DNA from: Tabrizicola flagellatus
Lineage (GTDB): Bacteria; Pseudomonadota; Alphaproteobacteria; Rhodobacterales; Rhodobacteraceae
Assembly (NCBI RefSeq): GCF_008271465.1
Contig: NZ_VMDU01000004.1
Span: forward strand, 1 to 64,000
Length of the DNA stretch: 64,000 bases
Reading direction: 5' to 3'
The notes beneath the pieces were generated by a model, which saw only the letters and a list, made by a program, of their open reading frames with translations, had not been told where the DNA came from and searched no databases. A program made the translations under genes and the position numbers. Positions 49,235 to 52,041 of the stretch are shown here, piece by piece (the stretch's first letter is position 1; every line of letters begins with the position of its first letter).

Positions 49235-49816
49235 TCAGGACCGCAGGTGGTCGTCGTCCACCGGCGCGTCGGTGTGGACGCCCGAGCGGACCTCCTCGAC
49301 GGCACGGTCGATCGCCTCGATGCAGCTCTGGCAGATGTCATAGGTGACATGCGTCGGATGCCGCTCGCCGATGTCGTCGCAGGATGTCCACTGCGCTTCG
49401 CCATGCAGCCGGACATTGCCGCAGAACGAACATTTCACGTCCCTGGCCGAGGGGTCGTAGTGCCAGCGGTTCAGCGGCGGCGAGAAATGCCAGGCATCCT
49501 TCAGGTCATGGACCATCAGCGCGCGGTCGTCCTTCATCGGCTGGATGGTCATCAGGAATTTCCGCGCCATGCTGGGGGAATCGCAGCGGTATTCCAGCCG
49601 CAGCGTGCGCTTGTGCTGCAACACGGCGTCGATCATCTTCGCGGTTTCGGCGCGGGTCTCTGCACCGGCGATATGTGCCATGATCGAGGTCGAGAGCACC
49701 GCGTTCGAGGTGGCCGACTGCGCCCCGCCGTTGAGCGCGAACTCATCCCACTCGCCGCCAACCCAGAGGACGCGATATTCGCTGTCTACGACCGCGTAGA
49801 CCTGCAGGAACTTCAC
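49235..49816 (-). CDS. Uncharacterised PAS-like protein with C-terminal Cys4 zinc site
   Basis: A 193-residue soluble protein. Residues about 1-110 look like a PAS fold: FLQVYAVVDSEYRVLWVGGEWDEFALNGG, then LEYRCDSPSMARKFLMTIQPMKDDRALMVHDL. RCDSP and the W-EFA-NG pattern recall a group of small PAS-fold proteins. The C-terminal half has KCSFCGNVRL and DICQSCIEA, two CxxC pairs spaced like a zinc-binding treble clef. There is no HTH or kinase domain. The GTG start follows GGGAGGG by nine bases. A TGT-N12-ACA site lies 112 bp upstream, suggesting co-regulation with the photosynthesis genes. The function is unknown. Confidence 0.65.
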   Translation of the reverse strand: MKFLQVYAVVDSEYRVLWVGGEWDEFALNGGAQSATSNAVLSTSIMAHIAGAETRAETAKMIDAVLQHKRTLRLEYRCDSPSMARKFLMTIQPMKDDRALMVHDLKDAWHFSPPLNRWHYDPSARDVKCSFCGNVRLHGEAQWTSCDDIGERHPTHVTYDICQSCIEAIDRAVEEVRSGVHTDAPVDDDHLRS

Positions 49817-49927
49817 TGCTCTCGCCCTCCCAAGCGTCGTCAGCGGAAGGACCTTAGCACAGTTCTGCAGGAAATCGCGTCCGAAGTTTACACTTCCCAC
49901 AGGATTCTGCGGGCTTCGTGGCGGCCA

Positions 49928-49945
49928 TGTCAACGCAGATTGACA
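49928..49945. promoter_or_regulatory. PpsR/CrtJ-type site upstream of the PAS-like gene
   Basis: TGTCAACGCAGATTGACA matches TGT-N12-ACA, with fully symmetric six-base half-sites TGTCAA and TTGACA. On the minus strand TTGACA can serve as a -35, with CAGAAT 18 bases later as a -10, so bound repressor would block that promoter. The site overlaps the dxs stop codon. Confidence 0.6.
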
Positions 49946-51870
49946 ACCCCCATTGATCTTGCGGGTAGAACCACGGCGCGGACCGTCGCGGCGATGTCGG
50001 AGGCGGCAAGTCCGGCCCAGGCATACATCTGCGCCGGGCTGGCCTGGTCGATGAAGCGGTCGGGCAGCGTCATGGTGCGGACTACCCCGCGCCGGTCGAG
50101 CGCGCCGCTGGCCGCGAGATGGTGCAGCACCAGCGCCCCGAAGCCCCCGGTCGAGCCCTGCTCCAGCGTCACCAGCGCGCGGTGGTGGCGGTGCAACTGG
50201 TCGATCAGCCCCTGATCCAGCGGTTTGGCAAAGCGGGCATCGGCGACGGTGGCGGAGATGCCCTCGGCCTCGAGGATCGTGGCCGCGGCCAGCGCCTCGG
50301 ACAGATGCGCCCCGAAGGAGACGAGCGCCACATCGCTGCCTTCGCGCAGGATGCGGCCCTTGCCGATGGCAAGCGGCTCGCCCCGGTCGGGCATCGGCAC
50401 GCCGACGCCTTCGCCGCGCGGATAGCGCAGAGAGATGGGGCCGTCGTCATGGGCCGCGGCGGTGGCGATCATGTGGACCAGCTCGGCCTCGTCGCCGGCG
50501 GCCATCACCGTCATGTTGGGCAGGTTCGCGAGGAACATGGTGTCGAAGGCGCCGGCATGGGTGGCGCCGTCCTGTCCGACCAGCCCCGCGCGGTCGATCA
50601 TGAAGCGGACGGGCAGGTTCTGCAGTGCCACGTCATGCACGATCTGGTCGTAGCCGCGTTGCAGGAAGCTGGAATAGATCGCGCAGAAGGGCTTCATCCC
50701 CCCCGCCGCCAGCCCCGCCGCGAAGGTGACGCCATGCTGTTCGGCGATGCCCACGTCGAACACCCGCGCCGGGAACCGCTTCTGCATCACGTCGAGGCCC
50801 GTGCCCCCCGGCATGGCCGCCGTGATCGCGACGATGCGCGGATCGCGCGCGGCCTCCTCGGTCAGGGTCTGGCCGAAGACGGCGGTGTAGTTCGGCGCAT
50901 TGGCGGGCGTCTTGTGCTGCCTGCCGGTGGCGATGTCGAACTTGCCCACCCCGTGATACTTGTCGTCCGCGCCTTCGGCCGGGGGATAGCCGCAGCCCTT
51001 CTTCGTCACCACATGCAGAAGCACCGGCCCCTCGGCCCGCTCGCGCATCGAGCGCAGCGCGTGCAGGAGCATCGGGATGTCGTGGCCGTTCACCGGGCCG
51101 AAGTAGGAAAAGCCCAGCTTCTCGAACAGTGTCACGCCGGTCGGACGGTCGCCGACCATCTCGCGCGCACGGCGGGCGCCTTCGCGCAGGGGGGCGGGCA
51201 GGTGGTCCTCCAGCCCCTCGGCGATGGCCTTGAGCGTGGCGAGCGGCCCCTTGCTGGCGATGGAGTTCAGGTAGGTCTGCATCGCGCCCACGGGCGGGGC
51301 GATGGACATGTCGTTGTCGTTCAGGATCACGAACAGTCGCTTGCCGAGATGGCCGGCGTGGTTCATCGCCTCGTAGGCCATGCCGGCGGTGATCGCCCCG
51401 TCGCCGATGACGGCCACGGTGTCGCCCACCGCCTGCCCCATCTCGCGCGCCATGGCAAAGCCAAGCGCGGCCGAGATCGAGGTCGAGGAATGGGCCGCCC
51501 CGAAGGGGTCGTATTCGCTTTCGCTGCGCTTGGTGAAGCCGCTGAGGCCCCCCGCCTGGCGCAGGGTCAGCATCCGGTCGCGGCGGCCGGTGAGGATCTT
51601 GTGCGGATAGCACTGGTGACCCACGTCCCAGATCAGCTTGTCGCGGGGCGTGTCGAAGACCGCGTGCAGGGCGACGGTCAGTTCGACCACCCCCAGCGAG
51701 GATCCGAGATGCCCTCCGGTCTGGCTGACCACCTCGATCACCTCGCGCCGCAATTCGTCGGCCAGTTGCGGCAGGTCGCGGTCGGGCAGCGCGCGCAGGT
51801 CGGCGGGGCTGGCCACGCGGTCGAGCATGGGTTTGGGGGACAGGGCGGCGATGGAACCGGGCGCGGTCAT
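49930..51870 (-). CDS. dxs: 1-deoxy-D-xylulose-5-phosphate synthase
   Basis: A 646-residue thiamine-diphosphate enzyme making DXP from pyruvate and glyceraldehyde 3-phosphate, the entry to the MEP isoprenoid pathway that feeds bacteriochlorophyll phytyl tails and carotenoids. Motifs are [51 protein letters not shown] with [10 protein letters not shown] (TPP/Mg binding), and [19 protein letters not shown] in the transketolase pyrimidine domain. AAAGGAGG precedes the ATG. It lies just after the puf operon terminator; dxs downstream of pufX is known from R. capsulatus. Confidence 0.95.
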
Positions 51871-51890
51871 GGCGGCCTCCTTTCCGGGGC

Positions 51891-51924
51891 AAAAGGTGCC
51901 GTGTGGGGGTTGGCCACACGGCAC
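51891..51924 (-). terminator. Strong terminator between pufX and dxs
   Basis: Read on the minus strand, GTGCCGTGTGG - CCAACCC - CCACACGGCAC is a perfect 11-bp stem followed by CTTTT. It ends the puf message and lies only 21 bp before the dxs ATG, so dxs must rely on read-through or on a promoter very near or within this structure. Confidence 0.85.
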
Positions 51925-51928
51925 AAGT

Positions 51929-52041
51929 GCCTGTCGTCCGACAGGAAGGGAACCGGGGCCCGAAGGTCCCGCATCCGGCCCGTGGGAGAGCCGGATCATG
52001 GCCATCCGGGCCGCGCGGATCAGCGCCGCACGGCCCGGATG
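51929..52041 (-). other. Three further hairpins after pufX
   Basis: In order after pufX (minus strand): CATCCGGGCC - 19 bases - GGCCCGGATG, a perfect 10-bp stem; ATCCGGC - 10 bases - GCCGGAT; and CCTGTCGGACGACAGG, a 7-bp stem with almost no loop. Together with the terminator they form a compact 3' structure, as expected to protect the stable pufLMX message from 3' exonucleases. Confidence 0.7.

Follow-up and report, generated by a model that had tools for sequence, protein, structure and literature searches.

In purple bacteria, the textbook switch that responds to oxygen and light is the PpsR/CrtJ circuit, whose co-regulators vary from species to species. A PAS domain that lacks an output domain would work through contact with another protein. 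LOV domains carry a flavin-cysteine signature, GxNCRFLQ, and we know of no four-cysteine module in the LOV protein LdaP. LdaP (Dshi_1135) of Dinoroseobacter shibae is a PpsR antirepressor that binds FMN and requires Cys61 (PMC10890935). AppA and PpaA/AerR likewise modulate PpsR/CrtJ by contact (PMC10890935; PMC9144470), and PpsR in turn targets ppaA in R. sphaeroides (PMC4344238, Table 2). Within the 64,000-nucleotide stretch of Tabrizicola flagellatus DNA analysed here (the window), we identified a gene for a 193-residue protein that combines a PAS domain with four cysteines. Like LdaP, a PAS-superfamily sensor that is tied to the control of photosynthesis genes by PpsR in one member of the Rhodobacteraceae (PMC10890935), this protein may belong to that circuit. 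However, LdaP acts through FMN bound in its LOV domain and through Cys61, whereas the translation of the 193-residue protein was checked and lacks the LOV signature, and contact with PpsR is a conjecture. The comparison with AppA and PpaA/AerR has a similar limit, because these proteins rely on BLUF/FAD and B12 chemistry, respectively, and the 193-residue protein gave no BLUF or B12 match in Pfam at E values up to 10.

The gene spans positions 49235-49816 on the minus strand, from a GTG start at 49816 to a stop at 49235, and begins 113 nt downstream of the dxs stop codon. This ORF call is consistent with the homologous start in aligned close relatives and with the sequence GGGAGGG (49825-49831, minus strand), a likely ribosome-binding site 8 nt before the GTG. 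The dxs ORF in its longest form occupies 49930-52005 on the same strand and runs with its final codons and stop into a palindrome, so that the interval 49235-49945 contains the gene and this palindrome together. In a profile search of the 3.6 Mb genome, the sole match of the gene was itself. The same cluster contains, as read by eye, ppsR and an AerR/PpaA-like gene, and no match to a BLUF domain was found in this genome; a place for another input to the circuit therefore exists. Combined-term literature searches returned no published description that we could recognise as this gene, and PMC5362033 gave no match for the terms tried. The list of Rhodobacteraceae photosynthesis-cluster genes given in D. 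shibae order in PMC6052148 places idi directly after DXPS and shows no such gene at that point. The gene at the end of the cluster is probably an unrecognised part of photosynthesis control.

The original prediction described a PAS-like N-terminal part, two C-terminal CxxC pairs and no output domain, and our analysis agrees on all three. The AlphaFold2 model, computed with 35 aligned relatives as input, has a mean pLDDT of 91 and a pTM of 0.85, with low confidence confined to residues 183-193. In this model residues 5-110 (49487-49804, minus strand) adopt a PAS fold composed of a five-stranded sheet, flanking helices and a long F helix, and are followed by a four-cysteine module that ends in a helix. 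Comparison with the PDB by VIA-align supported this assignment, with a best Z of 12.1 (3mxq_A; rmsd 2.6 over 98 aligned residues) and mostly PAS, PYP, ARNT/HIF and phytochrome chains among the titles of the 50 rows listed. At the sequence level the query gave no Pfam PAS match, and PAS_4 was the only consistent Pfam or NCBIfam match among the relatives (8 of 35 with an E cut-off of 1; lowest E 7.5e-4). Searches of Pfam and NCBIfam identified no family that names the protein and returned weak zinc-finger-like matches only, and a sequence search of solved structures gave weak zinc-finger and ribosomal matches with E values of 0.03 or worse. Neither these two collections nor the model contained a DNA-binding or kinase domain for this protein. 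When the full model was compared by Foldseek, R. sphaeroides PpsR (4hh2) ranked third, with an E value of 2.2e-3. We do not claim a special kinship to PpsR on this basis, because many other PAS chains have similar Foldseek scores.

The four-cysteine module corresponds to residues 126-178 (49283-49441, minus strand). Its two CxxC pairs, C129/C132 and C162/C165, are invariant in all 35 aligned relatives, and in the models the first pair follows a strand and the second lies at the start of a helix. This order of elements would fit a treble-clef-like arrangement, as far as predicted structures can indicate. The isolated module gave five Foldseek rows against the PDB, the best at E 1.7, and no VIA-align row with Z of at least 2, which does not imply a new fold. 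Based on the motif and on knowledge of the family, the module probably binds zinc, the model itself being metal-free, and the cysteines raise the prospect that it senses metal or redox state.

The PpsR/CrtJ-type palindrome TGTCAA-N6-TTGACA occurs as the exact sequence TGTCAACGCAGATTGACA at positions 49928-49945 (assigned to neither strand), 111 nt before the GTG, and has the symmetric halves that had been reported for it. It is not purely intergenic, because it overlaps the last codons and the stop of dxs. With up to two mismatches allowed, five TGTCAA-N6-TTGACA sites are present in the window against 0.64 expected, and the plain TGT-N12-ACA pattern occurs nine times against 3.4 expected. The 3.6 Mb genome holds four exact copies, of which the other three, with genes assigned by eye, are located at bchE, in the divergent promoter of rpoE-chrR and in a gap flanked by an mtnK-like and an ABC-transporter-like gene. 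In R. sphaeroides, bchE is among the targets of PpsR (PMC4344238, Table 2). The copy between the mtnK-like and sugar-ABC-transporter-like genes (G000:C21:21499-21516, in L004; genes by eye) may belong to another regulator.

We scored sites with a PpsR matrix made from the 15 R. sphaeroides ChIP motifs that are placed upstream of operons (PMC4344238, Table 2), leaving out rows 16-19 of that table, which lie upstream of no gene. The palindrome reached 24.5 bits, within the 12.6-27.2 bits obtained by the 15 source sites on the matrix made from them, and when the window was randomised 200 times under a first-order Markov model, the highest score at any position was 22.3 bits. It ranks third in the window, after 59960 at bchC (27.7 bits) and 62046 between crt genes (25.1 bits; genes by eye). 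These two sites form part of the pairs 59934/59960 (bchC) and 62046/62070 (crt genes), in line with the original prediction of same-class sites elsewhere in the window. The palindrome described here is single, with a half-site-like TGTAAAC box 35 nt away and no other strong site nearby in the window. CrtJ usually binds two palindromes, either about 8 nt apart or looped (PMC9144470), and several targets in the R. sphaeroides ChIP table have one motif only (PMC4344238). The same source reports two R. sphaeroides genes whose PpsR sites were bound and which were not differentially expressed; its ChIP table lists no target after dxs, in a species that may or may not carry the gene (PMC4344238).

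Comparison of homologous loci shows that the palindrome accompanies the gene. It was present in 16 of 18 distinct dxs-linked loci, with 17.1-24.5 bits at positions -123 to -132, the two dxs-linked loci without it being L015 and L019; repeats of counted loci (L022, L023, L024, L052-L056 and L072-L079) were left out of this count. Among 555 control tiles of 300 bp from 11 of the loci, three scored at least 10 bits. No palindrome was found at the four tgt-lon homologues, L017, L026, L028 and L057, where the best score was 7.8 bits. The six gene-less phototrophs of the genus that we examined, of eleven, gave at most 7.9 bits anywhere in 5-kb stretches and have another gene after dxs. This gene differs between the six loci (L080-L085), since five share a similar membrane-protein-like frame and L084 has another (by eye).

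The coding function of dxs is not sufficient to account for this conservation. The first T of the palindrome falls on a wobble position of dxs, and this position is T in 15 of the 16 site-bearing loci, compared with 529 of 4513 third positions (11.7%) in the 3' parts of dxs from the 18 loci. The non-coding CA that follows the dxs stop is kept in 16/16, and the amino acids encoded at the palindrome vary (VNLR, VRLR, VHPR, VQPT and others). It is this violation of codon bias, the conservation beyond the stop and the variability of the residues that argue against dxs coding alone. The loci share ancestry, so the counts are not independent. Because the palindrome is conserved in most dxs-linked loci and was not found in the tgt-lon loci or in the gene-less loci examined, we assign the PpsR-type operator to the 193-residue gene. 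The original prediction of a PpsR/CrtJ-class operator thus gains support from sequence and position conservation, codon-bias violation and co-occurrence with the gene, and knowledge of this motif and its regulator family leads us to expect PpsR binding and oxygen control.

Between the palindrome and the gene we identified elements of a promoter. The conserved box TGTAAACTTC (49883-49892, minus strand), a 10-mer that is single in the genome, contains TGTAAAC, which lies 34-36 nt after the palindrome in 16/16 site-bearing loci; the ten distinct spacers of 35 nt average 41% identity. An extended -10-like element, TGYTANNNT (49851-49859, minus strand), follows the box by 22-23 nt in 11 of the 16 site-bearing loci. 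The TGTAAACYT box and the extended -10 also occur in the palindrome-less L017 and L026, so the basal promoter does not seem to depend on the palindrome, and L057, again without a palindrome, has the TGTAAAC box as TGTAAACTTG. The original prediction had a plausible -35 element overlapping the palindrome. The corresponding promoter-like match, TTGACA-N18-CAGAAT (49904-49933, minus strand; 10/12 matches), with its -35 inside the palindrome, is real, but the arrangement is not conserved in the homologues, where the -10 was not recognisable by eye.

About 50 bp separate the start of the palindrome from the TGTAAACYT box downstream of it, and steric repression from this distance is not obvious. Repression by cooperation with the TGTAAAC half-site, looping and activation are all candidates for the action of PpsR, and activation has been reported for CrtJ together with LAerR (PMC9144470). 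We rejected TGTAAACTTC as a second full PpsR palindrome because the ACA half does not follow in the homologues (by eye). Since TGTAAACTTC is part of a longer inverted repeat in the window, it could also be the operator of another regulator.

Close homologues of the gene directly follow dxs in 18 of 22 distinct loci, with puf preceding dxs wherever the stretch reaches. Carriers after dxs include Rhodobacter sp. SY28-1, R. calidifons, Tabrizicola thermarum, Gemmobacter aestuarii and R. viridis, named genomes having been scanned by exact peptide words. In the other four loci (L017, L026/L087, L028/L086 and L057) the gene lies between tgt and lon. In G135 and G545 the tgt-lon locus shares a contig with pufM, at a distance of 66-69 kb. 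The gene was present in 10 of 32 genomes of the genus, all of them among the 21 with pufLM and none among the 11 without (Fisher p 0.005); when the count was limited to genomes with completeness of 90% or more and contamination of 5% or less, there were 8 carriers and 16 phototrophs. In a family sample of 394 genomes we obtained 23 matches, of which eight were strong (E at most 1.9e-45) and came from genomes with pufLM in 8/8 cases, compared with 167/394 overall. Across the 17 distinct close-carrier genomes tested, G545 included, pufLM was always present. The close clade was thus found in phototrophs only, with 0/11 carriers among the non-phototrophs of the genus, contrary to the equal frequency that would have refuted the original prediction.

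No close homologue was identified outside the family in an order-wide profile search (20 of 292 genomes matching) or in a class-wide search (8 of 385 matching, including that of the window; best other E 1.4e-9), and the plasmid collection contained no homologue at E 1e-5. In the tree all close rows formed one group separate from the distant family, with support of 90/40 at its base and of 95/98 above L028; the dxs-linked rows may or may not be a single clade within it. The gene is missing from 11 of the 21 phototrophs of the genus, some of whose genomes are incomplete, and from most phototrophic genera sampled. Its absence from these 11 marks it as an accessory rather than a core factor, and a distribution that omits about half of the genus phototrophs argues against a role needed by all.

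The close clade belongs to a wider, uncharacterised family of stand-alone PAS proteins with CxxC/CxxC modules in Rhodobacteraceae, found in 3.2-3.5-kb loci (L029-L046) with varied neighbourhoods; murA is beside the gene in four of them (L036, L037, L039 and L040). Sequence set A2 omitted L039 (internal stop), L041 (an N) and the kinases L042 and L045, and set A3 additionally omitted L036, L040 and L043. The 14 stand-alone rows share with the 193-residue protein the domain order, W23 and the four cysteines, but are 19-27% identical over full rows and stand in varied neighbourhoods. Their upstream 200 nt contain no TGTAAAC box in 14/14 cases and one TGT-N12-ACA, in L044. The kinases L042 and L045, found by the family profile, have PAS domains with the same Y-x-C-D-x-P...R...H pattern (by eye), but there the output is a kinase, whereas the 193-residue protein has the four-cysteine module. 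The predicted tie to phototrophy holds for the close clade, which was found in phototrophs only, whereas distant relatives of the PAS-4Cys type also occur in non-phototrophs.

One of the exact palindromes (G000:C2:223353-223370; L001:1501-1518) lies in a divergent promoter, as read by eye. On one side are genes that we take to be rpoE-chrR, for the singlet-oxygen sigma factor, and on the other is an amine-oxidase-like gene, presumably RSP_1091-like. We surveyed the best score per locus around chrR (L212-L240); of the 32 genomes of the genus, 29 had a chrR match and were included. Phototrophs had at least 17 bits in 18 of 20 cases, the others scoring 13.3 and, at a truncated locus, 2.7; among nine non-phototrophs one reached 26.9 bits in a 59% complete genome and the other eight, one of them truncated, had at most 9.6. 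The association with phototrophy gave a Fisher p of 9e-6 at 13 bits with the truncated loci L239 and L240 left out. The R. sphaeroides ChIP table lists no rpoE-chrR target (PMC4344238). These sites suggest that in the genus the reach of the PpsR system extends to the singlet-oxygen sigma factor, which would link photosynthesis repression to singlet-oxygen defence. That this site tracks phototrophy provides independent support for reading the motif as a PpsR site.

Several other explanations could account for part of these observations. The palindrome might serve dxs and puf, as a boundary or roadblock at the end of the operon, or be bound but silent, with the gene driven from the TGTAAAC-box promoter without PpsR. 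Its position in the 3' end of dxs, about 50 bp upstream of the box, would suit this explanation, as would the persistence of the box and -10 in L017 and L026, and of the box in L057, without a palindrome; bound but silent PpsR sites have also been reported (PMC4344238). However, none of the six gene-less phototrophs examined has the palindrome after dxs, which ties the site to the gene and not to dxs alone, and its gap to the box of the gene is fixed at 34-36 nt; we consider this explanation unlikely. That the gene encodes an ordinary housekeeping redox or zinc protein at the cluster edge, linked to phototrophy by shared ancestry, is more improbable still. The carriers are indeed related, so that counts are not independent, and the 15 weaker family matches show no enrichment in phototrophs (pufLM in 8/15 versus 167/394, Fisher p 0.43). 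Against this stand the absence of the close clade from 11/11 non-phototrophs of the genus and the conserved photosystem-type operator.

A further alternative accepts PpsR regulation and makes the protein an assembly or quality-control factor, for example for the photosystem or for isoprenoid and pigment enzymes, with the PAS domain as a binding module rather than a sensor. The gene adjoins dxs and puf and has a photosystem-type operator, and no DNA-binding or kinase domain was found in its product, all of which would suit such a factor. Yet four close homologues retain the protein at tgt-lon, away from dxs, distant relatives occur in non-phototrophs without a photosystem link, and the PAS residue pattern resembles that of the sensor kinases L042 and L045 (by eye). 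An assembly role is possible on this evidence but somewhat unlikely.

Given the operator and the restriction to phototrophs in the genomes tested, the 193-residue protein is very likely the product of an accessory photosynthesis gene under PpsR-type control. We propose that a promoter of its own downstream of dxs would drive transcription under the PpsR/CrtJ operator, so that oxygen should repress the gene and its product should appear along with the photosystem. With no output domain, protein contact is the most likely mode of action, and by analogy the product would most likely be a sensory adaptor or co-regulator of photosystem regulators, with PpsR as the first candidate partner, through which pigment genes could be tuned to a redox, metal or small-molecule signal. 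As a whole, this reading of a PpsR-controlled accessory gene for a PAS and four-cysteine adaptor seems to us evenly poised between right and wrong. A more specific form of it, which we regard as speculative and rather unlikely, would add a further PpsR/CrtJ co-regulator to AppA (BLUF/SCHIC), PpaA/AerR (B12) and LdaP (LOV). This sensor, built of PAS and zinc parts, would in its turn be under PpsR control and so close a feedback loop. In Rhodobacteraceae of the Tabrizicola type and some others, the loop would respond to redox state, to zinc or to an intermediate of the pigments. A PAS-zinc protein whose close clade occurs in phototrophs only, under a PpsR-type operator, is a testable candidate for a missing input in species where, as in this genome, no BLUF protein is found.
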